Source: Deltaproteobacteria bacterium
GTDB taxonomy: Bacteria > UBA10199 > JACPAL01 > JAHFST01
Assembly: GCA_023265625.1 (NCBI GenBank)
Contig: JAHFST010000001.1
Location: forward strand, 223,265-287,264
Direction: 5' to 3'
Length of the DNA stretch: 64,000 nt
Part shown: piece after piece, positions 10,360 to 47,950 of the stretch
Position numbering within the stretch: position 1 is the first letter of the stretch
How the letters are laid out: every line of letters starts with the position of its first letter
Notes under the pieces: generated by a model
Databases searched by the model: none
Told to the model about the DNA's origin: nothing
Seen by the model: the letters and a program-made list of their open reading frames with translations, nothing else
Position numbers and translations under genes: made by a program

Positions 10360-10381
10360 CGACTATCGCGAAACCCCGAAC

Positions 10382-10477: not shown

Positions 10478-10527
10478 ATTATAATCCCTACTTGATCCCC
10501 CGTTCATTTCATGCCAAAAAACGCCGC

Positions 10528-12314: not shown

Positions 12315-13111
12315 CGTCAAAAATAACACAATTATTTGCAACGTTAAAAAAGGAACAGCGCAAGGCCCTCATCCCTTTTATCACGGCCGGTGACCCGGAT
12401 CTTGCTACCACCAAGCGTTTGATCCAGGCCTTGGCCAATGCCGGGGCCGATCTCATCGAATTAGGTGTTCCCTTCTCCGATCCTATGGCCGATGGCCCCG
12501 TGATTCAACGAGCTGACGAGCGGGCGCTGGCGCATGGGACCACGCTGCGAAAAATCCTCAAGTTGGTCAAAGACGTACGGTCTCAAGTTTCAACGCCCAT
12601 TTTGTTGATGGGGTACTATAACCCCATCCTGGCGTATGGCTTGAAATCCTACGCGCGCGATGCCCGCCAGGCTGGAGTGGATGCCACCTTGGTGGTTGAT
12701 CTTCCTCCGGAAGCCGCCGGGCCTCTTAATCGGGAGTTGCGCCGGGTGGGGATTGACCTGATCTTTCTGTTGACCCCGACCAGTGACGAGGCTCGGATTC
12801 GCCTCGTGAGCCGTCAGGCGCGAGGGTTTGTCTATTTTGTCTCGATGACCGGAGTAACCGGCGGGGCCTTGCAAGGCGCCAAGGAAATCCGTCGCAAGAT
12901 CCGGGAGATTCGCCGTCACACCTCTCTTCCGGTGGCCATCGGTTTTGGAATTTCCCATCCGCAACAGGCTCGGAAGATGGCTGAACTGGCCGACGGGGTG
13001 GTGGTGGGAAGCGCCCTGGTGAGGGCTCTCGAGATAAGCGGTAAGCCGGTCAAGGCCGCCGGCGATTTTCTGGCTAAGTTTAGCAAGGTGTTGAGGAAAA
13101 ATCAGGGGTGA
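12311..13111 (+). CDS. trpA: Tryptophan synthase alpha chain
   Basis: Cleaves indole-3-glycerol phosphate to indole, which is channelled to TrpB. It has 266 residues. Catalytic Glu50 ([11 protein letters not shown]) and Asp61 (MADGP) are present, as are FITAGDPD at 23-30 and the phosphate-binding VAIGFGIS and VVVGSALV segments near the C-terminus. GTG start with a 4-bp GTGA overlap with trpB. It ends 12 bp before the stop of a convergent receiver gene; no strong terminator is visible in that gap. Confidence 0.97.
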
Positions 13112-13123
13112 TGGACCGACTCT

Positions 13124-13531
13124 TCAGTTGAGTTGTCTGGGGCGTGTTTTCTGCTCGATCTTTTCCAAAAGCGCTCGTTCTTCCACGGGCTTCATCATGA
13201 AGTCGTCGCACTCTCGGTTAAAATTGGTCAGGAAAGGCTGCTTGTAGCCGGAGAGGAGGATGATCGGGACACCGGCCCCCGGTTGAATCCCCCGCAGTTG
13301 TTCGACCTTGCGGATGGACTCCAGCACCTCGATGCCGGACATTCCCGGCATTCGAATGTCGAGCAGGATCAAGTCGTAGGGGGCTTCCTTGAGGAGCGAG
13401 GCGATGTAGGTTCCGAGCCCCTCGGCGCCACTTTGCGACTCTTCCACGATGTAGCCGGCGTTCTCCAACATGGTGGTCATCGCATCAATTAAATCGGCCT
13501 CATCATCGACAATCAGAATCCTATTTCCCAT
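13124..13531 (-). CDS. Stand-alone response regulator receiver protein (CheY-like)
   Basis: The protein is a single receiver domain with no output domain. The N-terminus RILIVDDEAD supplies the acidic pocket. Asp58 in LILLDIRMPGMSG is the expected phosphorylation site, followed by the switch Ser (ILLSGY) and the conserved Lys (MMKPVEE). It probably works by protein-protein contact in a phosphorelay; no histidine kinase is nearby. The start is either ATG 13531 (MGNR, chosen because the receiver fold begins there) or ATG 13543, four codons upstream. Neither has a clear ribosome site. It is divergent from leuS and convergent with trpA. Confidence 0.85.
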   Translation of the reverse strand: MGNRILIVDDEADLIDAMTTMLENAGYIVEESQSGAEGLGTYIASLLKEAPYDLILLDIRMPGMSGIEVLESIRKVEQLRGIQPGAGVPIILLSGYKQPFLTNFNRECDDFMMKPVEERALLEKIEQKTRPRQLN

Positions 13532-13619
13532 AGAGGCAACCATTTTAACAGATATTGTCCGTTAGTCCCAAACAATTTTTATTTCATTTTTTATAACGAT
13601 TCAGTACAAGTCCCAGCCT

Positions 13620-16193
13620 ATGTTTGACCCGGAACAGCCTTATCACCCCAAGGAAATTGAGCCAAAGTGGCAGCAGGTTTGGGAAGAAAAGAAGATTTTC
13701 CAGGCCTTGGAGGATGGGCAGCGGCCTAAATTCTACTGTTTGGAGATGTTCCCTTATCCCTCGGGAAAAATTCACATGGGGCATGTCCGTAACTACACGA
13801 TTGGGGATGTGATCGCGCGGTTTAAGCGGATGCGTGGTTTCAATGTGTTGCATCCGATCGGTTACGACGCCTTTGGCATGCCGGCGGAGAATGCCGCCAT
13901 TGAACACAAGACGCATCCGGCGGCTTGGACGGATGACAACATGTCGACCATGAATCGGCAGTTGAAGCGGATGGGATTTTCCTACGACTGGGATCGTGAA
14001 TTGGCCACCTGCCGCCCTGAGTACTACCATTGGGAACAGCTCGTCTTCCTTAAAATGTTTGAGAAGGGTTTGGTCTATAAGAAAAAGTCGTTCGTCAACT
14101 GGTGCACCCCTTGTGACACCGTCTTGGCGAACGAACAGGTGATTGATGGCCGTTGTTGGCGCTGTGACCGGGAGGTGAGCCAGAAGCCGTTGGAGCAGTG
14201 GTTTTTCAAAATCACCGCCTATGCGGACCAATTGTTGGCGGATATGAAGCAGCTCTCCGGTTGGCCCGAGCGCGTGGTGACGATGCAGCGCGAGTGGATC
14301 GGGGAAAGCCAGGGCGCCACTGTTCGGTTTCCTTTAGAAGGAAAGAATGGCGAGGCTTCCGATCGGTGTATCGAGGTTTTTACGACCAGGCCGGATACGC
14401 TTTATGGCACGACCTTCATGTCACTCGCTGCGGAACACCCCATGGCGCAAGAGCTGGCGCGGGGCACGGCGCAGGAGTTGCCGATTAAACGCTTTGCGGA
14501 GCAAGTGGCAAAGATGGATCGTAACCAACGCCTGACCGATGCCTATGAAAAAGAGGGGGTTTTTACCGGGGCGTATTGCCTCAATCCCCTGACCGGCCGG
14601 CGCATGCCCGTCTATGCCGCCAATTTTGTCTTGGCCGACTATGGGACGGGGGCGGTGATGGCGGTACCGGCCCATGATCAGCGGGATTTTGAGTTTGCCA
14701 AAAAATATCAGATCCCGATGGAGGTGGTGATTCAGCCCTCGATGCAAGACACGCTGGATCCATTGACCATGAAAGAGGCTTTTGCCGAGTCAGGGATCAT
14801 GGTGAATTCGGCGGCCTTCAATGGCACTTCGTCGGAGGTGGCCAAGGTGGGGATTGTCCGGCTGCTAGAGGAACGCAAGGTGGGGCAAAAGACGCTGGCT
14901 TATAAGTTGCGGGATTGGGGGATTAGCCGCCAGCGGTATTGGGGGACCCCGATCCCGATTTTACATTGCCCCAATTGTGGCATGGTCCCGGTCCCGGAAG
15001 CCCAGCTCCCAGTGGTGTTGCCAACCGATGTCGAGTTTACCGGCCAAGGGGGGTCGCCGCTGAAACGCAATCAGTCTTTTCTGGAGGCCCCCTGTCCTAA
15101 GTGCAAGGTGGGAACCACTCGGCGTGAAACCGATACGATGGACACCTTTGTGGAATCCTCATGGTATTTTCTCAGATATTGTTCGCCCCATTACGACCAG
15201 GGCCCGTTTGATCCCAAGGCCGTGGCCTATTGGATGCCGGTGGATCAATATATTGGCGGGATTGAGCACGCAGTTTTACATCTGCTCTATGCGCGGTTTT
15301 TTACCAAGGTGTTGCGGGATCTTGGGTTTTTCAAAGGGGGGGATTTAAATGAACCTTTTCAAAATCTCCTGACACAGGGGATGGTCATCAAGGATGGCGC
15401 CAAGATGAGTAAATCGAAGGGGAATGTCGTGGATCCCAATTACCTCATCGAAAAATATGGGGCGGATACGGCCCGGTTGTTCAGTCTCTTTGCCGCACCC
15501 CCGGAAAAGGATCTGGATTGGAATGATCAAGGGGTGGAGGGGGCCTATCGTTTCCTGGGGCGGGTGTGGCGTTTGGTTCGGGGAGTTATTGCGGAACGGA
15601 AACGTTTGATCCACCAGCGGAGTCCTGAATCTTCTGATGGCGCGGCTTGGCTGTCCGGGGGGGAGGGACTGATCGAAGTACAGCAAGAGCTTGATGGCGA
15701 ACAGGAAAAACGTGATCTGGAGAGGTGGTTGCACAAGACCATCAAGAAGGTGACCGAGGATCTGGAAAGGTTTCATTTTAATACCGCCATCTCGACCATC
15801 ATGGAATATTCCAATTTTTTGGCGAAAATCGAGAAATCACACTATGCCCGCGAGTCCGTTTGGCAAGCGGTTCGGGCCTTGGTAGTCCTCCTGTCACCCT
15901 TTGCGCCGCATCTGGCGGAGGAATTATGGCAAGATTTAACAGGGACAGGGTTGCTCGCTATCGAACCTTGGCCGACCTATGACGAGTCGGCCCTGGTGGT
16001 GGAGGAGGTGACTCTCGTGGTGCAGGTCAATGGCGTGGTGCGGACGACTCTGTCGGTTGCCGTTGGTTTGGCCCAATCCGACGCGGAGGCCCTGGCCACT
16101 GCTGACGCCCGTGTCAAAAAATATCTGGAACAAAAAGCCGTCGTCAAAATTATTTACATCCCTAATCGCTTGCTAAACATAGTGGTCAAATGA
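13620..16193 (+). CDS. leuS: Leucyl-tRNA synthetase
   Basis: Class I aminoacyl-tRNA synthetase charging tRNA-Leu. Its 857 residues are normal for bacterial LeuRS. The HIGH-type signature is HMGH at 52-55 ([15 protein letters not shown]) and the KMSKS loop is exact at 595-599. The editing (CP1) domain is present ([28 protein letters not shown]). A Cys pair in HCPNCG and CPKC suggests the zinc module. The C-terminal domain ends [14 protein letters not shown]. The stop overlaps the start of holA (ATGA). No Shine-Dalgarno sequence precedes ATG 13620. Confidence 0.98.
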
Positions 16194-17110
16194 TTAATGC
16201 CTTGGTCGGGACAGAACATTTTTTGATAGAACGGGCCTGTGCCCGTTTGAAGGAACGACTCCTTCAAGGCCTCTCCGATTTTGATTTTGACCAGTTCGCT
16301 GCGGGTGTGACCCCCGTGACGCGGGTTTTGGAATCGCTCAATACCTTGCCGTTTCTGGGAGGGAAGCGCGTCCTCATCATCAAGGAAGTGGAAAAGTTTA
16401 AAAAGGAAGATTTGGAAACACTCGAGCCCGCCCTTAAAAATTTGCCTGAGTCGATTGAATTGTTGCTCGTCGGGGGCAAAATTGACCGGAGATTTCGTTT
16501 TTGGCAGACGGTGGAAAAACAGGGAAAGTTGGTCGAATATAAAACGCTTTATCCGCGCGAGGTGCCGGGTTGGATGAACGAAGAGTTGCGCTCCCACGGG
16601 GTGAAGATACAACCCAAGGCCCTCTCCTGGTTGGCCGGGGTGGTGGGTGTCGATGTGGGGAGCATTGCCGCCACCCTGGAAAAATTGCGGCTGTTAATCG
16701 GTGACCGTAACGAGATCACCCTGCAAGATGTGGAGCGTTGTGTCACGGCCTTTTCCTGGAAGAGTCTTTTTGATCTGACAGATGCGGTCGGGACACGCAA
16801 TAAATCCCTTTCCCTCAAATTGTTCCGATCCATGGCGGCCTCGGGTGAAAGCCCGGTGGGGTTGCTGGCATTGATTGCGCGGCATTTTCGTATCCTGTTC
16901 AAGATTAAGTCGTCTCCAAGGCAGGGGGCGACTGACTTTGGCATTTCGCCCTATTTTTTTAAGGATTACGTTCGACAGGCGGAGCGTTTTTCGTTGCCCG
17001 ATTTAAAAAAGGTGTATGAAAACATCTTTCACACGGACTGGAACCTAAAAAGCTCGCCGTTGCCGGGTGAGGTGATTTTTGAAAGGCTGTTGTGGGAGTT
17101 ATGCAGCTAG
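16190..17110 (+). CDS. holA: DNA polymerase III delta subunit
   Basis: Clamp-loader delta subunit, which opens the beta clamp during replication. It has 306 residues, slightly short for HolA. The pattern fits: N-terminal [17 protein letters not shown], the [20 protein letters not shown] region equivalent to the Walker-like delta core, a central [11 protein letters not shown] strand, then [12 protein letters not shown] and the collar domain with [17 protein letters not shown] and [12 protein letters not shown]. The leuS-holA order with a 4-bp overlap is common in bacteria. The 3' end overlaps the convergent rpsT gene by 12 bp. Confidence 0.9.
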
Positions 17111-17407
17111 CTTGCGGACCAGACTCGAAAGGCGCGAGACGTGACGCGAGGCGTTCTTTTTATGAATAATCCCATGGGCCGCTGCCTTGGAAAACGCCGC
17201 CATCGCCTTTTTCAGGGCCTCTCCAGCCAACGCAACGTCCTTCTTTTGGACGGCCGCCTTGACCTTCTTGGTCACGGTCTTGAGCTGGGTGTGCGCACCC
17301 AGGTTCCGTTCGTATCTTTTCAGGCTCTGGCGGTGCCGCTTGATCGCTGAACGATGCCGCCCCTTAACCAGCTTGCCCTTCTTTGCGTCTGCTTTTGCGT
17401 CTGCCAT
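17099..17407 (-). CDS. rpsT: 30S ribosomal protein S20
   Basis: Primary 16S rRNA-binding protein of the small subunit. The product is 102 residues from ATG 17407 (MADAKADAKKGKLVKGRHRS). It is strongly basic and all-helical, with the family pattern SAIKRHRQSLKR, the Lys-rich middle and [17 protein letters not shown] at the end. Earlier in-frame ATGs at 17428 and 17446 would add unsupported residues. AGGA lies about 13 bases upstream of the chosen start. It is convergent with holA, with a 12-bp overlap of coding ends. Confidence 0.95.
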   Translation of the reverse strand: MADAKADAKKGKLVKGRHRSAIKRHRQSLKRYERNLGAHTQLKTVTKKVKAAVQKKDVALAGEALKKAMAAFSKAAAHGIIHKKNASRHVSRLSSLVRKLAA

Positions 17408-17486
17408 AGGAGGGTGTTTTCCTAGCATGTTGTAAAATTTTAGCAACTAATTTGTGAGGTCCGTCCAATTGATCCATAAGTCTGCC

Positions 17487-17557
17487 GTAGGGGCGATCCT
17501 CGTGATCGCCCTCACCCGGGTGGAGAGGATTGGGGCGAATACAAGATTTGCCCCTAC
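17487..17557. repeat. GTAGGGG...CCCCTAC palindromic element, intergenic copy
   Basis: A 71-bp element bounded by GTAGGGGCGAT and ATTTGCCCCTAC, with an inner stem GGGCGATC-CTCGT-GATCGCCC. It sits between rpsT and the DUF433 gene. The ends match the copies in icd, the pseudouridine synthase gene and the mdh upstream region. Confidence 0.75.
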
Positions 17558-17663
17558 AAACCGGGGCATTCTGCAGACAATCCTATTAATATGAGAGTGA
17601 TAGGCGGGATTTTTTTGCCAAAGTTCCCTTGCTTTCCACCGTTGATTGATTAAACTCTTTGAT

Positions 17664-17903
17664 ATGCCCCGTTTGTATCGTTCTATCGTCTTTAATCCGA
17701 AGATTTGTCATGGAAAACCCTGCTTTAAAGGGACGAGGATCCTTGTCTCGACCATACTTGATTCCCTAGCGGCTGGCGATTCGATTGAAACTTTGGTGCG
17801 GGAATATCCACCTCTAAAACGCCAAGACATTCTTTATGCGCTTCAGTATGCCTCTTTGTTGGTTAAAGGAGAGGAACACCATTTGGATCAGAAGGCCGTC
17901 TAG
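17664..17903 (+). CDS. DUF433 family antitoxin
   Basis: A 79-residue protein from ATG 17664 (MPRLYRSIVFNPKICHGKPC). The DUF433 pattern is clear: the P.I..GKPCFKGTRI core, VSTILDSLAAGDSIETLVREYP, and the helix-turn-helix-like LKRQDILYALQYA. DUF433 proteins are typical partners of DUF5615/PIN-like toxins and probably bind both toxin and promoter DNA. The stop overlaps the start of the next gene by one base, so the pair is co-translated. The frame is open to 17646, but that start removes nothing useful. Confidence 0.85.
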   Translation: MPRLYRSIVFNPKICHGKPCFKGTRILVSTILDSLAAGDSIETLVREYPPLKRQDILYALQYASLLVKGEEHHLDQKAV

Positions 17904-18268
17904 TGAAATTCTTTTTGGATGCCAACTTACCGAACAACTTGGTTGACCTTATCCGAAAGAAATTTGGTGTTCCGGTGCGAAAAGTTCCCGGCGTTTTGTC
18001 TGATGAACAGATTTATGCAAAGGCGAAACGACAAGACCGTTGTCTGTTAAGTCTTGACACCGATTTTCTCAATATCCTTAAATATCCTCCAGGCCATCAT
18101 TCCGGAATTATCGTCTTTCGACTCAAAGATCAGAGTCGGGAAAATGTTTGCTCAGTTGTTATTCATTTTTGTGACATGTTCAAGGGGCGGTGGCATTTGT
18201 TGAAAGGTAATACCGTTGTGGTTCGAGAAACTCGATTTAGGATTTATACCCCTTCACAGAATTCGTGA
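17903..18268 (+). CDS. DUF5615 PIN-like toxin/nuclease
   Basis: A 121-residue protein from GTG 17903. It begins MKFFLDANLP, with the first PIN-like acidic residue, and has LSDEQIYAKAKRQDRCLLSLDTDFLNI, whose SLDTDF carries the second acidic site. HHSGIIVFRL is the third conserved strand. This is the Mut7-C/DUF5615 fold, a predicted metal-dependent RNase. Together with the DUF433 protein it forms a type II toxin-antitoxin module inserted between rpsT and murJ. The murJ reading frame is open across its 3' end. Confidence 0.85.
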   Translation: MKFFLDANLPNNLVDLIRKKFGVPVRKVPGVLSDEQIYAKAKRQDRCLLSLDTDFLNILKYPPGHHSGIIVFRLKDQSRENVCSVVIHFCDMFKGRWHLLKGNTVVVRETRFRIYTPSQNS

Positions 18269-29843: not shown

Positions 29844-29870
29844 TAGGGGTTCAAAATTTTGAACCCTTAC
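29843..29870. repeat. 28-bp palindrome spanning the stop codons of two convergent genes
   Basis: Half-site GTAGGGGTTCAAAA, followed by its reverse complement with one change (CCCTTAC for CCCCTAC). The first G is the last base of the ChaN-like gene's TAG. The TTA near the other end is the TAA stop of the inositol-phosphate synthase gene. It matches the perfect palindrome at 47923-47950. It could fold in both transcripts, but no T-run follows. Confidence 0.85.
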
Positions 29871-31183
29871 TCGTAATATTCCAATCCCAAATGCGTAATT
29901 GGTTCCTCACCCATCATGTGGCGCAACGTGTTCTTCATTTTGATTTCTTGGATGAAGAGGTTGTGTTCGGGGTAGAGGCCTTTGGCGGTCATGGGGCTCT
30001 TGTAGAAGAAGGAGAGCCACTCTTGGATGCCGCGCATCCCGGCCCGTTGAGCCAGGTCGCTGAAGAGGACTAGGTCGAGGACCAGGGGGGCCGCCAGGAT
30101 TGAGTCTCGGCAGAGGAAATCGACCTTGATCTGCATCGGGTAACCCAACCAACCGAAGATGTCGATGTTGTCCCAACCCTCCTTATTGTCACGCCGCGGC
30201 GGGTAATAATTGATGCAAACCTTATGATAGAGGTGTTTGTAAAGATCGGGGTAAAGATCGGGTTGCAGGATGGTATCCAAAACACCGAGCTTGCTTTCTT
30301 CTTTTGTTTTAAAAGAATCGGGATCGTCCAAGACCTCACCGTCACGGTTTCCCAAAATGTTGGTGGAGTACCAACCGTTAATTCCCAGATAACGCGCCTT
30401 GAACCCTGGGGCCAAGATGGTCTTCATCAAGGTTTGGCCCGTCTTGAAATCCTTCCCAGAAATGGGGGCATTGTTGGTGCGTGCTAATTCTTCCAGGGCC
30501 GGGATATCGGTGGTTAAATTAGGGGCCCCATTGGCGAAGGCAATCCCCAATTTCAAGGCCGCATAGGCGTAGATCATGCTTGGGGCAATGCTCGGGTCAT
30601 TGTTTCTCAAACCTTCCTCGAAACTATCTAGGGTTTGGTGCACGGCCTGCGGTTTCAGGAAGGCCTCTGTGGAACCGCACCAGATGATTACGATGCGGTT
30701 GAGGTTGCGAGATTTTTTAAAGCCTTCGATGTCAGCCATGACCTGCGCCGCGAGCTCCATTTTATTTTTACCCTGTTTGACATTCGGGCCGTCGATATTT
30801 CGGATGTAGTTTTTGTCAAACACGGAGCTGAGCGGTTTGACGGATTCCAACTCGGTGCGCACTTGCAGGAGCAAGTCTTTTTCCAACACACCGGCCTTGA
30901 GGGCGGCTTCATAGGCATTGTCAGGAAAGATATCCCAGCCGGTAAAGACCAAGTCTTCCAATTTTGCGAGGGGCAAAAAATCTTTGATCAGCGGGGTTTT
31001 TTTATCGGTTCGTTTGCCGAGGCGGATGGTCCCCATCTGGGTGGTGGAGCCAATCGGCTTGGCCAGGCCTTTTTTGATGGCCTCCACTCCTGCAATAAAA
31101 GTAGTAGAAACCGCCCCGAGGCCCACCATCATAATTCCCAGTTTTCCCTCGGCCGGCTTTATTTTATTCCCTTTTTCTGACAT
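29867..31183 (-). CDS. ino1: Inositol-3-phosphate synthase
   Basis: NAD-dependent conversion of glucose 6-phosphate to myo-inositol 3-phosphate (438 residues). The N-terminal NAD-binding GIMMVGLGAVSTTFIAGVEA is typical. GWDIFPDNAYEAALKAGV, IVIIWCGSTEAF, NGAPNLTTDIPALEELA and ISGKDFKTGQTLMKT (active-site Lys region) follow, with NILGNRDGEVLDDPDSFKTKEESK. GAAGGAG lies about 7 bases before ATG 31183. Inositol synthesis suggests phosphatidylinositol-type lipids or inositol solutes. Its stop codon lies inside a palindromic element. Confidence 0.93.
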   Translation of the reverse strand: MSEKGNKIKPAEGKLGIMMVGLGAVSTTFIAGVEAIKKGLAKPIGSTTQMGTIRLGKRTDKKTPLIKDFLPLAKLEDLVFTGWDIFPDNAYEAALKAGVLEKDLLLQVRTELESVKPLSSVFDKNYIRNIDGPNVKQGKNKMELAAQVMADIEGFKKSRNLNRIVIIWCGSTEAFLKPQAVHQTLDSFEEGLRNNDPSIAPSMIYAYAALKLGIAFANGAPNLTTDIPALEELARTNNAPISGKDFKTGQTLMKTILAPGFKARYLGINGWYSTNILGNRDGEVLDDPDSFKTKEESKLGVLDTILQPDLYPDLYKHLYHKVCINYYPPRRDNKEGWDNIDIFGWLGYPMQIKVDFLCRDSILAAPLVLDLVLFSDLAQRAGMRGIQEWLSFFYKSPMTAKGLYPEHNLFIQEIKMKNTLRHMMGEEPITHLGLEYYE

Positions 31184-32464: not shown

Positions 32465-33997
32465 TCATACGACAAAACTCCGATCCAGACTACGGTATTG
32501 AATCGCCTCCGCCAAGTGGTGGGATTTGATGTCTGGTGAGTTGGCGAGATCGCTGATGGTACGCGCCACCTTGAGGATGCGATCGAAGGAGCGGGCGGAG
32601 AATTTGAATTTTTTGACGGCCTGTTCCAGGATTTTTACGCCGGTCGCATCAATCGGACAATACTTTCGGATTTGACGCCCCGCCATCTGGGCGTTGGCGT
32701 GGAGTTTTAGTTTTTGCAATCGTTGTATCTGGATGGTTCGGGCTTGGACGACTCTTGCCCGGATCGCCGTTGAGGGCTCTCCCTCCTTTAGCTCCAACAA
32801 TTCCTGAAACGGGACGGCGGGGACCTCGATGTGCAAATCAATGCGGTCCAGCAGGGGGCCGGATAATTTGCCTCGGTAGCGTTGCACCTGGTTGGGGGTG
32901 CACGTACAGCTTTGTTGTGACGATCCCAGATACCCGCACATGCAAGGGTTTTGCGAAGCGACCAGGGTAAAACGCGACGGGAAGGTGAGTGTGGAGGCGG
33001 CGCGCGCGATGGTGACATGGCCCGATTCCAAGGGTTGTCGTAAAATCTCCAAGACATCTTTTTTGAATTCTGGCAGTTCGTCCAAGAAAAGGATGCCATT
33101 GTGGGCCAAACTCACCTCTCCAGGACGCGGAAAGGAGCCACCCCCAGCCAGTCCTGCGGTGGAGATGGTGTGATGGGGCGCGCGGAATGGCCGCTGTTGC
33201 AGCAAAGGCCCCTGGCCGTTTAATTCTCCGGCGATGCTGAAGATCTTGGTGGTCTCCAAGGCCTCTTCGAAGCTCATCTCGGGGAGGATGGTGGGCAGGC
33301 GTTGCGCGAGCATCGTCTTGCCGGAACCAGGCGGGCCCACCATGGCGATGTTGTGGCCCCCCGCGGCGGCGATCTCCAAGGCCCGTTTGGCATGAGACTG
33401 GCCGCGGATCTCTGAAAAATCGATCAGATAATCCGTCCGGTGTGCGGTGGGGATGGGATAAGCGGTATGAAGCGCTGGCTGCAGGTCTTTTTCCCCGGTG
33501 AGAAAGGTGACGAGTTCGGCTAAGGTTTCGACTCCGTAAACATCCACTCCAGCCACCACGGTGGCCTCGCCTAGATTGATTTTGGGTAAAATCAATCCCA
33601 GCTTTTTTTGTTTGGCCAGGGTGGCGATCGAGAGGGCCCCGCGGATGGGTTTGACCTCGCCATGCAGGGAGAGTTCTCCGGCCATCAGAAATGACGCGAG
33701 GCGGTTGGTGGGAATAACTTCTGAAGAAGCGAGTAGCCCCAGGGCAATCGGGAGATCAAAGGCGGTCCCTTCTTTTTTGACATTGGCCGGGGCCAGGTTG
33801 ATGGTGATGCGTCGTCGGTGAAAATCATAGCCCGAATTTTTGATCGCCGCGATGACGCGGTCCCGACTTTCCCTGACGCTACTCTCGGGAAGGCCCACGG
33901 TATTCCAATTGGCCAGCCCCATGGCGATATCGACCTCGACCTCCACCAGGTAGGCATCAATGCCCAACAGACCCGCGCTGAGAATTTTTGAGAGCAT
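32465..33997 (-). CDS. comM: YifB/ComM family Mg-chelatase-like AAA ATPase
   Basis: 510 residues from ATG 33997 (MLSKILSAGLLGIDAYLVEV). The N-terminal Lon-protease-like domain is present (VDIAMGLANWNTVGLPESSVRESRDRV). Then comes the AAA+ core: Walker A GPPGSGKTMLAQRLP, Walker B GILFLDELPEF, and FRAPHHTIS. A Cys cluster (CMCGYLG...CTC) is typical of the family. The C-terminus is RSFDRILKVARTISDLA. ComM is a branch-migration helicase helping natural transformation in Vibrio and Haemophilus; that role here is inferred. TTG 34018 is an alternative start. Confidence 0.93.
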   Translation of the reverse strand: MLSKILSAGLLGIDAYLVEVEVDIAMGLANWNTVGLPESSVRESRDRVIAAIKNSGYDFHRRRITINLAPANVKKEGTAFDLPIALGLLASSEVIPTNRLASFLMAGELSLHGEVKPIRGALSIATLAKQKKLGLILPKINLGEATVVAGVDVYGVETLAELVTFLTGEKDLQPALHTAYPIPTAHRTDYLIDFSEIRGQSHAKRALEIAAAGGHNIAMVGPPGSGKTMLAQRLPTILPEMSFEEALETTKIFSIAGELNGQGPLLQQRPFRAPHHTISTAGLAGGGSFPRPGEVSLAHNGILFLDELPEFKKDVLEILRQPLESGHVTIARAASTLTFPSRFTLVASQNPCMCGYLGSSQQSCTCTPNQVQRYRGKLSGPLLDRIDLHIEVPAVPFQELLELKEGEPSTAIRARVVQARTIQIQRLQKLKLHANAQMAGRQIRKYCPIDATGVKILEQAVKKFKFSARSFDRILKVARTISDLANSPDIKSHHLAEAIQYRSLDRSFVV

Positions 33998-34080
33998 GAG
34001 AGAGGCTTGGATAAGCAAACTACGTGCCAGGGAATATTGCGAGGGAAGGGGAGGGTGCGTTTTGAAAAACCGTCCTATTT

Positions 34081-34145: not shown

Positions 34146-36725
34146 ATGGCTTTTCCTTTGAGTCAGGTTTGTTGGCCCGCGGTCCACGTGGCAGATGCGA
34201 TCGCTCGATTTCAGGGGGCGAACGGGTCTCAGATGCCGGTCGCTTGGCAGGAAGTGGATCGAATTGTTCACGCCACTAGTTCAGTTTTTCCTAATAATAT
34301 AGATGACTTACCTGTTTTACCCAGTGACGACCCTGAGGTGGTTCGAAGGGCGTTAGACGCGATTGTGGGGTCCCTGCGCAGCGCGAATCTCCTTCCTGCC
34401 TTTCACCCGTTGAGCCTTGGGACGATGACCGTTCATGCCGGGCTGGCCGGTGAAGTGGTGTCGCTTGAAGCCGTTTCCCCGTATCAGGTGAGGCGTTTTG
34501 GTTTCAAGGCGACCCGTTTGGCCGAGGTGATGCGATTGGGGCTTCCGGTGCCCAAAGGGGTTGTGGTGACCACCGATTGTGTTGACAGGCTCTTGGCTGA
34601 CGGTGAGAGGGATCCTCTGTTGCTGGATGCCCTGGTTTGGCAGTTGTTGCGGCAGTTGCGCGAGATCGGGCTTGATCTGACTGCAGAGCATCCCCCATTG
34701 GTGGCGGTGCGCAGCGGGGCCCCGACGATCATGGAAGGGATTATACCGACGCTGCAATATGTCGGACTCAATGACCAAACGGCCGCAGGTCTCGTGGCGC
34801 AATACGGAGAAGAGCAAGTTGAACGGATTTATCTTCGCTTCATCACACAATTTGCCGAAGAGATTGCCGGAGTGGCTCCTGCGGACTTCGCCAAGGTGCT
34901 GGAGGCCTTGGAGGGGGCAACCATGTGGGAGCGGGTCGCCCATGCCAAACGGCTGTATCGGGTTTATGCCGACGCCGATTTTCCGGAGGGCGTTGTGGAA
35001 CAACTCCGAATGGTGGTGGGGGCGATTGCCCGATCTTGGAATGCGGCGGGGGTCGTTCAGCATCGCCGCTTGAATGGCATTGAGGATCATCCTCCGACCG
35101 CCTTGATTGTGCAGGAACAAAAATTTGGCGGATTGGGGAAGGATTCGGCCTCGGGGGTGCTTTTTACGCGCAATCCGAAAAGCGGGGCGGCGGGCGATTG
35201 GGGCAGCGCCAAGCTCCACGCTGGCGGGGATGAGGTGATGACTGGTTCCGATAGACGTGCCCTGCCGTTACGGAGGTTGTTTTTTTACATGGAAGCGGCG
35301 CGGGATTCGCTCCGTGGCATGACGCATCGGTTAGAGTCCCACTTTCACGGTCCCCAAAAGCTTGAATTTGTGGTGCAGGATGGGGAAAGTTGGGTGACGC
35401 AGGTGGATCCCATGGTGCTTTGGCCGATGGCGCGGGTGCAGGTGGCCGTAGCGATGAATCGCGAAGGAATCATGACGGATGCGGCTTCCGTCAGATTGGT
35501 CAATGATGGGGTTTGGTGGGCGCTGGCCTCGCCCCGTTATCGGCGTCACCCCGGCATGATGTCCGGTTATTTGCTCTCCGGAAAATCCTTGGTCCCGGGA
35601 ATCGCCAAGGGGAATATCACGTTTGACTATGAAGGCCGGATGTTGCAGCCGTGTGCGGATCGATCCCTAGTCATTGTCCTCGATTATGTGGCGCCGGCCC
35701 ATTGGGATTGGGTGCTCAAGCATGCCGTGGCGATTGTCTTTGTTGCGTCCCCGCCAGCCCATTTTATTCCGCGGGCCCTGGCTGCGCGGGTGCCGGTGAT
35801 CCTCTCACCGGGATTTTCGGAGGGGGCCAAGCAGACCCTGGAGGAGGGCGCCAAGGTCTGGTTGGATGCTACGCATGAAGATGGATGGCTCAGTGATCAA
35901 GCCACGACGGAGAAGTTGGGGGAACGGGCGCGGTTTTTGCGAAATGAGCTGACTCTGGCGGATATCCAGGGAGAGAACGCGCGTACGGAGGTGGCCACGA
36001 TCCTAGCGTTTCGGGAGATTCAGGCAAGATATGAACGGTCTCGGACCACGGCCTCTCCCAAAGAGGTGGGGCCCGTTGTCGAATCATTTCTGAGGGAGGC
36101 TCAATGGTCAAAACCCCTGTTGGAAGACGCCATTTTTGACCATGGCTGGGGGCGACTGCTGAGTAAGCCCTCTTCGTTAGGGCGTCATGACGGTTATGCC
36201 CCTACTAAAGAAGATTTTGTTTACGAAATGAATGTGGAACGAGTGCGCGATTTTGTGACCGCACTTTGGCAACAGGACCCGGGTTCTCCCAAGCGGCTCG
36301 CATTGGCCTTTGTCGATACGGAACAGCATGAACATGCCTTCATGAAACACCTGTTTCGGCTCCTGGATGATTCCTTCAAGGGGGCTTTTTTAAACGAGTA
36401 TGTTCGGGCGGCCCAGAGCTTGAACAGGGCCCCCGGCCGGCCCAGCGGGATCTATCTGTTGAGCCGGTTGGTGTCGCAATTTTTTGACGTCCCCACAATG
36501 AGTTTGGCCCCGCTCGGGGAATTAACCGATGAGTCCGTCGAGTTTTTGTCGAGGGAACTCGACGATTTTTATCAGGTCTTGGAGGGCCGCTCGGAAGCGG
36601 GACCTCGTTATGCCCGGCTTTATAACCGGCTGGAGGTCCAAGGGATTGCGTTGCGTAACCCGGCGTTGCATGACAAGGCAAAATTGATGAACTACTTTTT
36701 GCGGCGGTCCAGTAATGAAGGTTGA
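34146..36725 (+). CDS. PPDK-like protein: ATP-grasp plus phosphohistidine domain, no PEP barrel
   Basis: 859 residues. Residues about 110-470 match the nucleotide-binding part of pyruvate phosphate dikinase: FGFKATRLAEVMRLGLPVPKG, LVAVRSGAPTIMEGIIPTLQ, YADADFPEGVVEQL, VVQHRRLNGI, SGVLFTRNPKSGA and KLEFVVQDGESWVTQVDP. A swivelling domain follows (SGKSLVPGIAKGNITFD...). Its usual TxGGMTSHAA is degraded to VASPPAHFIPRALA, with a His retained. The C-terminal PEP/pyruvate TIM barrel is missing. Instead about 250 unrecognised residues follow, ending FLRRSSNEG. I infer an ATP-dependent phosphotransferase with another acceptor, or a catalytically altered relative. The 3' end overlaps the convergent hypothetical by 34 bp. 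Confidence 0.7.
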   Translation: MAFPLSQVCWPAVHVADAIARFQGANGSQMPVAWQEVDRIVHATSSVFPNNIDDLPVLPSDDPEVVRRALDAIVGSLRSANLLPAFHPLSLGTMTVHAGLAGEVVSLEAVSPYQVRRFGFKATRLAEVMRLGLPVPKGVVVTTDCVDRLLADGERDPLLLDALVWQLLRQLREIGLDLTAEHPPLVAVRSGAPTIMEGIIPTLQYVGLNDQTAAGLVAQYGEEQVERIYLRFITQFAEEIAGVAPADFAKVLEALEGATMWERVAHAKRLYRVYADADFPEGVVEQLRMVVGAIARSWNAAGVVQHRRLNGIEDHPPTALIVQEQKFGGLGKDSASGVLFTRNPKSGAAGDWGSAKLHAGGDEVMTGSDRRALPLRRLFFYMEAARDSLRGMTHRLESHFHGPQKLEFVVQDGESWVTQVDPMVLWPMARVQVAVAMNREGIMTDAASVRLVNDGVWWALASPRYRRHPGMMSGYLLSGKSLVPGIAKGNITFDYEGRMLQPCADRSLVIVLDYVAPAHWDWVLKHAVAIVFVASPPAHFIPRALAARVPVILSPGFSEGAKQTLEEGAKVWLDATHEDGWLSDQATTEKLGERARFLRNELTLADIQGENARTEVATILAFREIQARYERSRTTASPKEVGPVVESFLREAQWSKPLLEDAIFDHGWGRLLSKPSSLGRHDGYAPTKEDFVYEMNVERVRDFVTALWQQDPGSPKRLALAFVDTEQHEHAFMKHLFRLLDDSFKGAFLNEYVRAAQSLNRAPGRPSGIYLLSRLVSQFFDVPTMSLAPLGELTDESVEFLSRELDDFYQVLEGRSEAGPRYARLYNRLEVQGIALRNPALHDKAKLMNYFLRRSSNEG

Positions 36726-37795
36726 TGAGGTTTTTTGACTTTAGGAGGAATGTTTGGAGGTCTGTCAGGTAAAGGGTTAATAGATTGCGGCGATGTCCAG
36801 CCCAAGAGGGGCATGCCGAAGTCGAAATTGATTTGGAAATCTTTTTCTAAGTTTAAGGCGTGGCGCCAGGATTGTTGCCAGCTTTGGAGCGCCTCCAACT
36901 CTCCCGCTGCAAAAATTTTCCTCAACTGCGCATAGTCCAGGCCCATTAAGTCACCGATAAAACGAATATGATTTTCCCATAGACAGGCGACGATCTTTTT
37001 TTGTGTCGAATCGGTGGAAGAAAATTGCACTTGTTGGATTGGCAGATCAAAGTGTTTTTGGAGCTTGCTCAACTCCGCATAGAACCAAGTGGCATATTTG
37101 GGACCTGAATTCAAAGCGGGAAAGCGAGTATACAGAGTGCTGACAATGGGGAGAGATACTCCTGGCTTATCGGCATCTGGCCCTATTTGTCGTGTGCCGG
37201 AGATCAATTCAAAGCCGGCAATCAGTCCCATGATGCATAGCAGGAGAGAACTTTCCTCACGGATTGCATATCGACCGGTACCGGAGGGGGCGTTCACAGC
37301 GAGATCTTTGGTTATCTGGGGGGTTTGAAAAAGAGCGAGGGCTTGTGCTGGTTGGGGGACAGCAGTTGGCCTGCCTGCGTAGGCCAGATCCAAACCGCGT
37401 AGCGAGAAATAGTCTTGCGTCAACGTTTCGTCACTTGTACCCCCACAAATCAGGGAAACTACCGCCAGCTCCGTTTGCAGGACTAAGTCGGTACAGTAGA
37501 GGCCCAAGGTTGGGGGAAAATCTCGTTCCAAGATCAATCGGGCGGAAGTGGCGCTGTCTTGGCACAAAATACCCCGGACGGGGAGGTGAGGGAGGAATCC
37601 CAGGGCGCTCACGGAGGTTTGTACCCTGACAAAACGGGTTTGAGTTGAGTCGACACCGAGGGTTTCTGCGGCCCTGCCCAGCAGTCTGTCTTCCGACAAT
37701 TGGCTCGACCGACGCACAAAGAGCGTATTGGCCCTGAGCTGCCCCAGGAGGGCGCGGAAGAAGGTTAACTGCATGGTTGTAAGCGCTGGTGCCAT
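36692..37795 (-). CDS. Hypothetical protein (367 aa)
   Basis: No family recognised. ATG 37795, with MQLTFF at 37774 as an alternative. A soluble protein with several hydrophobic strands (LAVVSLICGG, SLLLCIMGLIAGFELI) and five Cys. It ends in a Pro/Lys-rich tail (NPLPDRPPNIPPKVKKPHQP). The segment ENHIRFIGDLMGLDYAQLRK faintly recalls helix-hairpin-helix or RNA polymerase alpha-CTD patterns; this is weak. It lies 23 bp after the IMPase-HAD gene on the same strand, so probably co-transcribed. Its end overlaps the convergent PPDK-like gene by 34 bp. Confidence 0.6.
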   Translation of the reverse strand: MAPALTTMQLTFFRALLGQLRANTLFVRRSSQLSEDRLLGRAAETLGVDSTQTRFVRVQTSVSALGFLPHLPVRGILCQDSATSARLILERDFPPTLGLYCTDLVLQTELAVVSLICGGTSDETLTQDYFSLRGLDLAYAGRPTAVPQPAQALALFQTPQITKDLAVNAPSGTGRYAIREESSLLLCIMGLIAGFELISGTRQIGPDADKPGVSLPIVSTLYTRFPALNSGPKYATWFYAELSKLQKHFDLPIQQVQFSSTDSTQKKIVACLWENHIRFIGDLMGLDYAQLRKIFAAGELEALQSWQQSWRHALNLEKDFQINFDFGMPLLGWTSPQSINPLPDRPPNIPPKVKKPHQPSLLDRRKK

Positions 37796-37818: not shown

Positions 37819-39648
37819 TCAGTGAAAAAGTTGCTTCTCCAGCTCAGGCAGGGCCACCGCCCAATCTTCGATCAGAAAGTCGGCCCCAGCATCAATCAGG
37901 CGACGGCGATTTAATTCCCAAGTGAGTCCCGTGCCCTGAGGGACTCCGAAGTTAATGCCACCGAGTTCCTTGACCGTTGCCATCCCATCCGGGGTGTCGT
38001 TGTAGAAGAGGATGGTGCCGTGGAAACGCCGTTTAAGGGCCAGAATGGCCTCTTTACGGAACTCATCTTTATCCCTAACAGCGGGCATATTATCCCTGGT
38101 GACGACATTCTTGGGGCCTATCAGGTCTAACAGGTCCGCATTTCTTAGTTGGGCCAGGACTTTGGTCCGGCCAACCGCGGCATAGGTAGGGGTCACAATC
38201 GGGACGTCTTTTCTGCGATATAGCGAGAAAAGATCCGGGATGCCTCTCATCGGTTGGGGAAATTCGGTCTCGCCGCGCTCATCCATGAAGCTGTAAAATC
38301 TATCCGCCGCTGTTTTTGGGGTCAGACCTTTTTTCAATCTGGCCAGGCGTGCGAACACCTCCTGATCTGAAATGCCATAGGTGTTTTCTGCCACCCAGGC
38401 CGCTGCGTCGACGGCAGTTCTATGGGGTAGGATGGAGCAATAGGTTTGCTCAAGACTTTCTTTCCAGTTGGGTTCCAGGGTCGTACCGTGGATGTCAAAG
38501 ATGGCCAGATAAGGCGGTCTAAAATGGGCCGTGCGTCCTTCGATGCGGATCAATCCACGCCGGGATGGAACTGGTGCTACGTCCAGGCGTACGGCGGGAC
38601 AGGAAACTTCTTTGTGATTCATTGGAAAAGTATCAAGCGCCCCCCGGTAAGCGCTCAGTCCGAGATCATGCAGTCGTCCATTGCTCCCTAAAATACCGAA
38701 ATTGCGGCCGAGCACTGGGCCCACACTGAAGTCGAGGGGCCGATCTAATAGATCGGTAACTTTGCCTCCAGCCTCTTCCACGAGCAGACTATAAGGAGCA
38801 TGATCCCAGATTTGCAATTGCCGGGTCCAAGGCAGGCTCAAGGGGGCGCGCATCACGATATCCCCCACACCACCTGCCAGGAGTGCATACCGGCGCGGAC
38901 TGGGGGCCTGAATAGTCCTTTCCTCCGGAAATCCCCCGTATAAGGTTTGGAGAAATGCCCTATCACCGGGATTGACTTCCCCATGCGACAAGTTGACTAA
39001 AGAGCGTAGCAAGATGGCCTCTTGTGGACCTCGAGCAGACACGCAGAGGCGCTTAAAATCCTCGCTCCCATCCAGCGGGGCGGCCCATGAGCCATATCCC
39101 TTGATGGCCATCAACAGGAGGCCTTCTTTTTGGGGAAATTGCGGCAGGCGCAAATGCGGAAAACCGATGGCGGAGAGTTGGACGACGCCCTCATTGATTA
39201 AGGCCAAGTTGATGGCGTAGTCACGCTGTTCCATGTAATAGGTTGCATCGATTGGATCCAAGACCCAGGTCCTGGCGCCCGAGGTCGGATAAGACACGCG
39301 ATCAATCCAGAAGTAGGGGTTGTCGATCCTGGTCTTCCCGGGGATGGAGAAGGGTCTTCCCTGGATTAATAAGTCATAGAGGGACTCCGCCGTTTCTTCC
39401 CCCATGAAACCATCATGGGGAAACCGATCCGATAGCCAGCGACTTGCCAAGGTCTTGAGCACATAATCGATCGACGTGACCTTGCTGCCGTCAGGCTTGA
39501 CGGCGGTCCAATAGTCTCCGGATTGCAATAGGTCTTCGGCAAGCCGACAACATTTTAAGACGATGTGAGCCGCAGCCCGGGCGTCGCCAATGAGGATGGC
39601 TGGCGCAAAAGAGAGGGTGGGCAGTGGGGGGCGTGTGCTTGGTATCAT
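37819..39648 (-). CDS. Fusion of an IMPase/bisphosphate-nucleotidase-like domain and a HAD-like domain
   Basis: 609 residues. Residues about 20-330 have FIG-superfamily metal sites: VKPDGSKVTSIDYV, GFMGEETAE, WVLDPIDATYYM (WxxDPxDGTxxF-like, with Ala for Gly) and IWDHAPYSLLVEEAGGKVTD. This is closest to Hal2/CysQ-type nucleotidases or inositol monophosphatase. Residues about 385-600 look like a HAD hydrolase: AIFDIHGTTLEP (motif I), VPIVTPTYAAV (motif II), a Lys in FRKEAILALKRRF, and ILFYNDTPDGMATV (motif IV). In motif I the second Asp of DxD is His, so activity may be altered. Substrates are unknown. Probably in an operon with the downstream hypothetical. Confidence 0.75.
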   Translation of the reverse strand: MIPSTRPPLPTLSFAPAILIGDARAAAHIVLKCCRLAEDLLQSGDYWTAVKPDGSKVTSIDYVLKTLASRWLSDRFPHDGFMGEETAESLYDLLIQGRPFSIPGKTRIDNPYFWIDRVSYPTSGARTWVLDPIDATYYMEQRDYAINLALINEGVVQLSAIGFPHLRLPQFPQKEGLLLMAIKGYGSWAAPLDGSEDFKRLCVSARGPQEAILLRSLVNLSHGEVNPGDRAFLQTLYGGFPEERTIQAPSPRRYALLAGGVGDIVMRAPLSLPWTRQLQIWDHAPYSLLVEEAGGKVTDLLDRPLDFSVGPVLGRNFGILGSNGRLHDLGLSAYRGALDTFPMNHKEVSCPAVRLDVAPVPSRRGLIRIEGRTAHFRPPYLAIFDIHGTTLEPNWKESLEQTYCSILPHRTAVDAAAWVAENTYGISDQEVFARLARLKKGLTPKTAADRFYSFMDERGETEFPQPMRGIPDLFSLYRRKDVPIVTPTYAAVGRTKVLAQLRNADLLDLIGPKNVVTRDNMPAVRDKDEFRKEAILALKRRFHGTILFYNDTPDGMATVKELGGINFGVPQGTGLTWELNRRRLIDAGADFLIEDWAVALPELEKQLFH

Positions 39649-41854: not shown

Positions 41855-42522
41855 TGATAACTCATCCCGATCCACGCAATGACCAAATTAGAAAAGGCAT
41901 GAAACAGGATCGAGGCGGTAATGGTTTGGCGTTGCTCTCGCAGCCAGGCAAAGACCAGTGAGGGAAAGAAGATGGAAAAATGCCACCATTGCAGCGCGAT
42001 GATGCTGTGGGAAAAGGCAAACAGGAGGCAGGTGACCAGGGCCCCCTGGCTGAGTGAAAGACCCAGACATGATATTTTTTTGGGGAACCGTTCGGCCAAG
42101 AGGCCTTGCAGGTAACCGCGAAAGAAAAATTCTTCGGGTAGGGCGACTAAAAAAAGTTGGGTGAGAGTGACGGTGCCCAAGGCTTCAAAGGATGCGGGGC
42201 TGAAAGACAGGTTGAAAAATATTTTTTGATACCAATGGCTGAAGACGAGGAAGGGCGGGAAGATCAACAAGACCGTCAAGCCGAACAGTCGCAGGCTCCC
42301 CATGAGATCGGCCTTCGATCGCTCAAACCAGAGGAGCGGATCGCGGCGTCCCTCGCCGCGCAGGGTCAAATGCAGGACCGGGGCGTAGATCAATAAAATG
42401 GCCGAATAGGTGGAAAGATAGTTGCCAATCATCGGAATGGCACGCAGTTGGTAAAAACATTTGAGGACGAGCAGGACCGCGATCAGGAGGATGATGGCTT
42501 CTTGTGGGAGATTTCTTTTCAT
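41851..42522 (-). CDS. CPBP-family intramembrane metalloprotease
   Basis: 223 residues with about six hydrophobic helices. The Abi/CPBP motifs are complete: PEEFFFRGYLQGLL (EExxxR, motif 1), FAFSHSII (motif 2 His) and SILFHAFSN (motif 3 His). These form the metal site of Rce1-like proteases. It sits directly after lgt (ATGA overlap) and before the pseudouridine synthase gene. A role in protein or peptide maturation beside the lipoprotein-processing genes is inferred. Confidence 0.88.
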   Translation of the reverse strand: MKRNLPQEAIILLIAVLLVLKCFYQLRAIPMIGNYLSTYSAILLIYAPVLHLTLRGEGRRDPLLWFERSKADLMGSLRLFGLTVLLIFPPFLVFSHWYQKIFFNLSFSPASFEALGTVTLTQLFLVALPEEFFFRGYLQGLLAERFPKKISCLGLSLSQGALVTCLLFAFSHSIIALQWWHFSIFFPSLVFAWLREQRQTITASILFHAFSNLVIAWIGMSYQ

Positions 42523-43292
42523 TTTTTACGGGCCAAATAACGATAAAAAAATACGGCAATGAGGCAGATGACAATCCCGGTGATTTGCGCGGTGGAGAGC
42601 AGGCCGTTAAAGTAGACCCCGCGATCGACGTCGCCGCGAAAGATCTCGATGAAGGCGCGCGGGATGGTCCAGCCCATCACCAAGACACAGGTGGTTTGCC
42701 CCGTGAAGGTGCGATGTTTATATACCCAGTTGACGCCCAAGAAGAGGAGGGTCGCATGGATCAGAGAATAAATTTGGGTCGGATGCAGGGGTAGGTTGGG
42801 GTAATAGTAGTAAGCGGTCGAGGCCGGGTCGGAAAAAGTGATCGCCCAAGGGAGATTGGTGGGCTTTCCATAGCAGCAACCGGTGAGCAGGCAGGCGACC
42901 CGCACGAAAAATTTGACAATCGGGGCCCCGGCGGCCAGGACATCGAAATAAATCAGTGTCGGCAGTTTGCGGATGCGAAAGTAGGCCCACAAAGATAAAA
43001 CAACCCCGATAAAACCCCCATAGGAGACAAAGCCTCCCCGCCAAAACTCAAAAACCCGCATGGGTTTTTCCCAATAGTAGGCCGGCGCTTCGACGACGAT
43101 ATGAAAGATCCTGCCGCCCAGGATGGCCGCAATCATCCCGATCATGCCCATATCGAGGATCACCTCGGGGCGCAGTTTTTCGCGATGGGCGAGGTAATAC
43201 ATGTAAAAGGTGGCGGCAAGCGTGGCCACCATGAGGAAGAAAAAGAACGAAGGAATCCGGGTGGAGCCAATTGTAAAAATAAAGGGACGCAT
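42519..43292 (-). CDS. lgt: Prolipoprotein diacylglyceryl transferase, paralog 1
   Basis: Transfers diacylglycerol from phosphatidylglycerol to the lipobox Cys. 257 residues, seven hydrophobic segments. Recognisable blocks: ILGGRIFHIVVEAP, FEFWRGGFVSYGGFIG (the usual HGG His is Tyr), FFVRVACLLTGCCYGKPTNL (with the conserved Arg and Gly), LHPTQIYSLI and a late Arg in GDVDRGVYFNGLLSTAQ. It follows lspA with one base overlap. A second lgt lies about 4 kb upstream in the same run. Which paralog is the housekeeping enzyme is not clear. Confidence 0.85.
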   Translation of the reverse strand: MRPFIFTIGSTRIPSFFFFLMVATLAATFYMYYLAHREKLRPEVILDMGMIGMIAAILGGRIFHIVVEAPAYYWEKPMRVFEFWRGGFVSYGGFIGVVLSLWAYFRIRKLPTLIYFDVLAAGAPIVKFFVRVACLLTGCCYGKPTNLPWAITFSDPASTAYYYYPNLPLHPTQIYSLIHATLLFLGVNWVYKHRTFTGQTTCVLVMGWTIPRAFIEIFRGDVDRGVYFNGLLSTAQITGIVICLIAVFFYRYLARKK

Positions 43293-46608: not shown

Positions 46609-47062
46609 TGGTCATTTCAAAATCTTCCCGTCGCAACAGGTCGGCCATTTTGTTTAATACCCGACGTTCCTCCCGACCACTCGAAATGACATGGTTAACC
46701 AGACTTCTGACCGGGGTGGAGATAGTCACGACCGATTTGCCTCCCTCCTCTTCAATAGAGATTTCCACACGGTAATAAGCCCCGGTAGTGCCATAATCTT
46801 TGCGCTCAAACAGGTCGAGGTAATGGGAGTTGGATTTGGTGCTCATCCAACCACTGCGGATCGACCCTTTGGCCTCGTCCGAATCGTCAATTTTATACCC
46901 CAGCATATCCAGGGCCTTTTTGCCGCTCTCAAAGGTTTCTTTGGCGGGGGCGCTGAATTTTTTCTCAATCGTGGCGGCGGCAGGGTGATCCTTGCCATAA
47001 ACCAAGACCTTGGTGCAACCGGTGGTGGCAAGCAGGGCGATCAGCAGCGGAAGATATTTCAT
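46589..47062 (-). CDS. Small lipoprotein (157 aa), unknown role
   Basis: Signal peptide with lipobox: MKYLPLLIALLATTGC, Cys16 the lipid site. The rest is a small alpha/beta domain (ETFESGKKALDMLGYKIDDS, AYYRVEISIEEEGGKSVVTI). No family name recognised; the pattern is like small outer-membrane lipoproteins of deltaproteobacteria. It lies between the second lgt (ATGA overlap) and ileS (20-bp overlap), inside the lipoprotein-maturation cluster. Confidence 0.8.
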   Translation of the reverse strand: MKYLPLLIALLATTGCTKVLVYGKDHPAAATIEKKFSAPAKETFESGKKALDMLGYKIDDSDEAKGSIRSGWMSTKSNSHYLDLFERKDYGTTGAYYRVEISIEEEGGKSVVTISTPVRSLVNHVISSGREERRVLNKMADLLRREDFEMTNVGVQE

Positions 47063-47859
47063 GAAGACCTTTTTTGGGCGTCCCCATTATGGGGGCGCAA
47101 ATAACAATACAGAGCCGTTGCCACCAAGAACATGATGATACTGACAAACTGAGAAGTGGACAGCCACCCCGGGATCACAAAACCGCGGACGACATCACCG
47201 CGAAAGGTTTCCAAGATTGACCGTGCCACGCTGTAGAGAACGATATAGAGAAGAAAAACTGCCCCGTCAAATTTTTTCCTCCGACTGGCGAGCGTCAAAA
47301 TTAAGAAGATTCCCAGCTCAGCGGCCATCTCCATGAGTTGGCTAGGGAAGAGCGGGATGCCGGCCGGGGCCAGGGAATATTCCGTGGCTGGGAAGGTGAG
47401 GGCCGCAAAAAAACCATCGGCGGGGCGTCCGTAGCAACAACCGGCGGCCAGGCAACCCAGGCGACCAATCGCATGCCCCAGGGCCACCCCGGGCATAAAG
47501 AGGTCGGCGACCTTGAAAAACGGCAGGCGATGTTTCTTTAAGTAAAAGATGCTAACTAAGATGGAACTGATCAGCCCGCCGTAAAATACCAGGCCGCCTT
47601 CCCAGATGCGAAAGATACCTAAGATGTCCAAGGCGTAACGATGCCATTCGACGATAATATAGAGAAGCCTTGCCCCCACCAGGGTGGCGAGGATGATGTA
47701 AAAGGCCAGGTCCATCACGATGTCAGGCGCGATCCCAATTTTTTTCCCCTCCCGCACCGTCCAGGTGATCCCCACGACAAAGCCCAGCGCGACTAAGACG
47801 CCGTATGTGTAAACTCGAATACCACTGAAGAGGGGGATTTCAAATAAGAGAGGGTGCAT
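47059..47859 (-). CDS. lgt: Prolipoprotein diacylglyceryl transferase, paralog 2
   Basis: 266 residues from ATG 47859 (MHPLLFEIPLFSGIRVYTYG). The frame extends to 47934, but the first ATG before the conserved IRVYTYGVLVALGF is used. Blocks: FRIWEGGLVFYGGLISS, GRLGCLAAGCCYGRPADGFF (R and G conserved, Asn replaced as in many deltaproteobacteria), LFPSQLMEMAAELG and FRGDVVRGFVIPGWLSTSQ. It is closer to canonical Lgt than the paralog at 42519. First gene of the run lgt-lipoprotein-ileS-lspA-lgt-CPBP. Confidence 0.88.
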   Translation of the reverse strand: MHPLLFEIPLFSGIRVYTYGVLVALGFVVGITWTVREGKKIGIAPDIVMDLAFYIILATLVGARLLYIIVEWHRYALDILGIFRIWEGGLVFYGGLISSILVSIFYLKKHRLPFFKVADLFMPGVALGHAIGRLGCLAAGCCYGRPADGFFAALTFPATEYSLAPAGIPLFPSQLMEMAAELGIFLILTLASRRKKFDGAVFLLYIVLYSVARSILETFRGDVVRGFVIPGWLSTSQFVSIIMFLVATALYCYLRPHNGDAQKRSS

Positions 47860-47922
47860 TGGCGCAGAATATACTGAGCCAAACAGAATTGTAAAGGGAA
47901 GTACAGGTATCGATGGTTTCGG

Positions 47923-47950
47923 GTAGGGGTTCAAAATTTTGAACCCCTAC
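47923..47950. repeat. Perfect 28-bp palindrome of the GTAGGGG family
   Basis: Half-site GTAGGGGTTCAAAA followed by its exact reverse complement. One base differs from the copy at 29843-29870. It lies between the M30-like gene and the second lgt, next to a terminator hairpin. Confidence 0.9.

Follow-up and report, generated by a model that had tools for sequence, protein, structure and literature searches.

The ATP-grasp and swivel (phosphohistidine) machinery of pyruvate phosphate dikinase (PPDK) has been repeatedly re-targeted to other acceptors (PMC4844700, PMC12167813), the described cases including rifampin phosphotransferase (RPH), the two-component phenol kinases (HpeHI) and the histidine kinase VadK (Rv1127c) of Mycobacterium tuberculosis. 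VadK, reported in 2026, lacks the PEP/pyruvate TIM barrel, autophosphorylates its His422 in the presence of ATP and Mg, and regulates the methylcitrate cycle (PMC13400623). In RPH, replacement of the Mg-coordinating Glu297 by Ala leaves activity in place (PMC4844700), and a 2025 study gives T/SxxGGxxxH as the motif conserved in the swivel domains of active dikinases (PMC12167813). Barrel-less PPDK relatives are already known from VadK and RPH, but those keep the catalytic loop. New in the protein described here, encoded in a 64,000-nucleotide stretch of a deltaproteobacterial contig (the window), is that it combines the absence of the barrel with a new helical module where the barrel would be and with an altered catalytic loop.

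The gene and its surroundings

The 859-residue open frame (Table 1) stands alone, both flanking genes lying on the opposite strand: a comM-type Mg-chelatase-like gene (32465-34018, minus) points away from it, and its end overlaps by 34 bases with a convergent unknown gene (36692-37795, minus). Its codon usage falls inside the range of the neighbouring genes, giving no sign of a recent foreign origin. Elsewhere in the same genome, on contig C36, a complete and motif-perfect PPDK carries the loop TTRGGMTSH and the barrel motif GIGLCRTE; the 859-residue protein is therefore a paralogue. One relative was found, in a genome from another family of the same order (G001), 1189 residues long and 34% identical over 786 aligned columns. 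The frame is intact, this diverged relative shares the C-terminal module, and a complete PPDK exists separately, which rules out a frameshifted or mis-assembled PPDK.

Elsewhere in the window, two adjacent giant frames (7-5610 and 5761-10359; 1867 and 1532 residues) lack any Pfam match that reaches the family's cut-off. The genes lspA and ileS lie between two copies of lgt, the gene for prolipoprotein diacylglyceryl transferase, at 42519-43292 and 47059-47934, within 5 kb of each other. A 609-residue protein (37819-39648) joins an inositol monophosphatase domain to about 280 residues without a Pfam match, and a myo-inositol-1-phosphate synthase gene is also present (29867-31183).

Table 1. Features of the 859-residue protein and its gene, in window coordinates
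Feature	Residues	Position	Strand	Basis or remark
PPDK-paralogue gene without PEP/pyruvate barrel	859 aa	34146..36725	+	open frame
N-terminal extension	1-96	34146..34433	+	poorly conserved, 26% identity to relative; pLDDT mostly low
PPDK-type ATP-grasp (nucleotide-binding) domain	~97-480	34434..35585	+	profile, PDB and fold matches; pLDDT mostly 70-97
Lys121, PPDK Lys22, kept	121	34506..34508	+	PDB and 32-PPDK alignment
Arg189, PPDK Arg92, kept	189	34710..34712	+	PDB and 32-PPDK alignment
Lys405 at the PPDK Asp321 position	405	35358..35360	+	alignment; Lys in relative too
Glu407, PPDK Glu323, kept	407	35364..35366	+	PDB and 32-PPDK alignment
Gln419, PPDK Gln335, kept	419	35400..35402	+	PDB and 32-PPDK alignment
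Asp421 at the PPDK Arg337 position	421	35406..35408	+	alignment; Ser in relative
Degenerate swivel (phosphohistidine) domain	~481-600	35586..35945	+	AlphaFold2 and weak fold match
His539, aligned with catalytic His of PPDK	539	35760..35762	+	alignment; loop VFVASPPAH
All-helical C-terminal module in the TIM barrel's place	601-859	35946..36722	+	AlphaFold2; one copy here, two in relative

Domain content and nucleotide site

The ATP-grasp domain is plainly of the PPDK type. The PPDK model TIGR01828 matches residues 118-499 (E 2.6e-51) with 174.6 bits, far under its curated cut-off of 843, and Pfam PPDK_N (E 1.4e-13) and the short-PPDK model NF004531 (residues 100-517, E 5.9e-49) match as well. 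A sequence search of the PDB returned PPDKs only, to about residue 518 (best E 6.5e-40), and Foldseek with the AlphaFold2 model, built from 34 sequences, matched PPDK structures including 1kbl. Within the ATP site, numbered by PDB alignment and compared with 32 PPDKs, four of the six residues considered (Lys22, Arg92, Glu323 and Gln335) are retained in both the protein and its relative, and the other two, Asp321 and Arg337, invariant in the sampled PPDKs, are replaced in both. Further shared replacements are Arg134 to Leu, Glu279-Asp280 to Asp-Glu and Met242 to Gln; Arg135 remains Arg here and is His in the relative. At PPDK-invariant ATP-grasp columns where both proteins depart, they carry the same new residue in 19 of 40 cases, versus 21 of 116 at variable columns (Fisher p 0.0004). 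The corresponding counts for the swivel domain, 8 of 22 and 10 of 35, do not differ significantly (p 0.37). This enrichment points to a re-specialised nucleotide site rather than independent decay, read from two sequences whose core columns evolve slowly anyway.

The region that follows is more degenerate. AlphaFold2 models a swivel-like domain with moderate confidence, and Foldseek ties it weakly to 2fm4, a PPDK carrier domain on its own (E 0.07, with a probability of 1.00 and a TM by target of 0.58). The TxxGGMTSH loop of PPDK, of which the pattern T..GG...H occurs in 47 of 48 sampled PPDK frames (the remaining one ends at a contig end), reads VFVASPPAH here and VVLGDPGAH in the relative. 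Both loops begin with Val and have no GG, and thus depart from the T/SxxGGxxxH of active dikinases, and both keep the catalytic histidine, as His539 and His560, respectively.

Beyond about residue 517 no Pfam or NCBIfam model covers the protein, and neither these models nor AlphaFold2 reveal a PEP/pyruvate TIM barrel (GxGLxRTE). Residues 601-859 have no significant sequence match. They form only helices in the whole-protein model (pLDDT mostly 50-90) and are helical again when modelled alone from three sequences (mean pLDDT 70), the lone model finding no fold match below E 0.6 in the PDB or below 0.2 in BFVD. Profile search, helical models and fold search together exclude a barrel hidden in this region, which as modelled is not a TIM barrel. 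No recognisable acceptor site was seen in the helical module. Its duplication in the relative would be easier to square with an interaction module than with an active site, and it probably serves for protein-protein contact.

An earlier note on this stretch had described a PPDK relative in which the barrel is missing, the His loop is altered and a new domain is present, and this core observation is confirmed. The alignment of His539 bears out its claim that the loop motif was lost and the histidine kept, and the barrel is indeed replaced by about 250 unrecognised residues, helical in the model and without sequence or fold match. The structure prediction and profile search it proposed for the C-terminus yielded no PEP barrel and no significant sequence match, leaving the module unrecognised, and where it had considered that homologues might keep the full PPDK motif, the sole homologue found also lacks the loop motif. 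Its statement that the ATP-grasp and swivel parts clearly match PPDK holds for the former; by sequence it fails for the latter, which is tied to PPDK by the aligned histidine and the weak fold match to 2fm4. The order of ATP-grasp, His and new domain, which it took to be different, differs from that of RPH only and is the ordinary order of PPDK. The altered ATP site, with Asp321 replaced by Lys and Arg337 by Asp or Ser, it overlooked.

Compared with PPDK (TIGR01828; PDB 1kbl, 1vbg), the protein thus shares the ATP-grasp domain, the position of the histidine after it and the four retained site residues, but differs in lacking the barrel and the TxxGGMTSH loop, in the two replaced site residues, and in its helical C-terminus and N-terminal extension. 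Like the short PPDKs of the VadK/Rv1127c type (NF004531), it is PPDK-derived and barrel-less with ATP-grasp and swivel present; however, the VadK-type proteins of Rhodococcus and Streptomyces keep TxxGGxxSHAAVV and end soon after the swivel, without a helical domain. On NF004531, a model that is not specific for short forms, as the full-length PPDK of the window genome passes it too, the protein scores about 168 bits and the relative 165 against a cut-off of 456, which the plasmid-borne short PPDKs of Rhodococcus (768) and Streptomyces (479) pass. RPH and HpeHI likewise combine ATP-grasp and swivel with a different third domain, but they keep the loop; in RPH the order is ATP, acceptor domain, His last, whereas here His539 is central and the helical module last, and the RPH acceptor domain is unrelated to that module. 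The RPH model matches only 58 residues of the protein (104-161). The prodigiosin ligases PigC and RedH match weakly over the first ~50 residues of the ATP-grasp domain (RedH E 8e-6), far under cut-off, and no other resemblance to them was found.

Further PPDK relatives surfaced on plasmids and in phages. On plasmid pA of Rhodococcus pyridinivorans (L108, 821-4323), the gene for a 579-residue VadK-type short PPDK is flanked by AMP-binding and biotin-carboxylase genes, an arrangement that parallels that of the relative described below. Plasmid RPME01 of Methylibium petroleiphilum (L110, 1405-4238) encodes an 844-residue PPDK relative, matched by the full-length PPDK model only to about residue 628 and followed directly by a microcompartment (BMC) shell gene. 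PPDK-like kinases (phrog_18609) are also encoded by phages of Vibrio, Stenotrophomonas, Rhizobium and others; among the matches listed, many end ahead of the swivel region or inside it.

Distribution and evolution of the pair

The PPDK-like gene with the C-terminal module occurs in 2 of 46 genomes of the phylum, namely the window genome and G001, which also holds a separate complete PPDK; alignment of the relative extends through the module. No relative was found in ~770 genomes outside the phylum (8 + 379 + 384), which were drawn from samples of two additional phyla plus a few individual genomes. A scan of genome contigs for more homologues returned ordinary PPDKs only, and the helical module was not found in viral contigs, plasmids or phages. 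In a maximum-likelihood tree the two proteins form a clade with 100/100 support on very long branches far from all PPDKs, the path between them measuring 7.7 changes per site versus ~0.5 between the two genomes' own PPDKs; given these branches, the position of the pair within the PPDK family is not resolvable. Identities to the relative at the three codon positions are 0.50/0.58/0.35 in the ATP-grasp domain and 0.49/0.62/0.30 in the C-terminal module, so that second positions are the most conserved, most strongly in the helical module, a pattern that, from this one comparison, shows selection on the protein. Judged from these sequences, the protein is a real, ancient, fast-evolving and lineage-restricted PPDK paralogue, the family resting on two genomes.

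The two genes share no neighbourhood. The neighbourhood survey suggested in the earlier note brought out nothing conserved between the two genomes, the ORFs flanking the relative having no counterpart in the window. In G001 (L093), the relative (14676-18245) is followed 106 bp on, on the same strand, by a gene for a 2161-residue fused biotin carboxylase/biotin carrier/carboxyltransferase (8084-14569), and a divergent gene on its other side encodes an 1826-residue AMP-binding protein. No match to the mid-region of that carboxylase turned up in the window genome, another contig of which carries a different biotin-carboxylase frame of 2386 codons. Matches to this mid-region, in frames of 1853-2458 codons, do turn up in other genomes of the class, ones without the PPDK-like module.

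Candidate functions

From what the sequences show, namely which domains are present, which residues are lost or kept, a complete PPDK in the same genome and selection on the protein, we favour, at somewhat short of an even chance, the reading in which this ancient, fast-evolving paralogue, having lost its barrel and carrying a helical module, acts as a regulatory pseudo-dikinase beside the complete PPDK. By sequence it probably no longer makes PEP. With the equivalents of Lys22, Arg92, Glu323 and Gln335 retained, the ATP-grasp domain would still bind nucleotide, opening and closing with it. The absence of Asp321, of Arg337 and of the glycine-rich loop at the histidine suggests that pyrophosphoryl transfer of the canonical kind to His539 is lost or very slow. 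The helical module, together with its protein partner, would then receive the nucleotide state by way of the swivel-like domain. Against such a pseudo-dikinase speaks the conserved His539, which a dead enzyme would not need. By analogy, loss of a single site residue need not abolish activity either, as in RPH E297A, and Tyr stands at the Asp321 position in a Streptomyces protein that passes the short-PPDK cut-off. The shared-residue enrichment could also partly reflect slow core columns, and against a signalling role count the two sequences known and the finding of no partner or conserved neighbourhood in its support. More tentative, and rather unlikely, is the proposal of a hitherto undescribed, lineage-specific pseudo-dikinase class in which a re-specialised ATP-grasp nucleotide sensor signals via the helical domain, possibly regulating the cell's own PPDK or another enzyme of carbon metabolism.

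The same histidine can be read the other way. Its retention in both relatives despite the changed loop, together with the four kept ATP-site residues and the precedent of barrel-less VadK, which autophosphorylates its histidine and acts on metabolic enzymes (PMC13400623), would suit an active, non-canonical histidine phosphotransferase in which ATP phosphorylates His539 and the phosphate or phospho-state reaches a protein bound at the helical module, along the lines proposed for VadK. We consider this doubtful, as Asp321, Arg337 and TxxGGxxxH are missing in both relatives, the G001 protein has His in place of Arg135 and a changed glycine loop as well, the sampled short PPDKs retain the loop, and both proteins score well under the NF004531 cut-off. 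The earlier note's own proposal of a new phosphotransferase acting on an unknown molecule, taken here as a dikinase of the RPH or phenol-kinase kind whose C-terminal module binds a small-molecule acceptor, is so far not supported and appears improbable: the two site residues and the loop are lost in both proteins, and the module, duplicated in the relative, is unrelated in sequence and fold to the rifampin-binding domain or anything else in the PDB. Repeated re-targeting of the same machinery, the fused biotin carboxylase gene beside the relative and the carboxylase genes adjoining the Rhodococcus short PPDK do favour it, but no metabolic neighbourhood is common to both genomes. The pseudo-dikinase reading fits the sequences at least as well as a new phosphotransferase would. 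Very improbable, finally, is a paralogue of relaxed function heading for loss, with no defined role; the very high evolutionary rate, the altered active site and the occurrence in only 2 of the phylum's 46 genomes would agree with it, but both frames (859 and 1189 codons), each from its own family of the order, are intact, conservation is highest at second codon positions, and codon usage does not leave the range of the neighbours.

If the favoured pseudo-dikinase reading is right, a barrel lost, an unrelated helical module present, and matching changes to the catalytic loop and parts of the ATP site in a distantly related pair would together carry the series of re-targeted machines towards a regulator without dikinase chemistry. 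For genome annotation, proteins labelled "PPDK" need to be checked for both the loop and the barrel.
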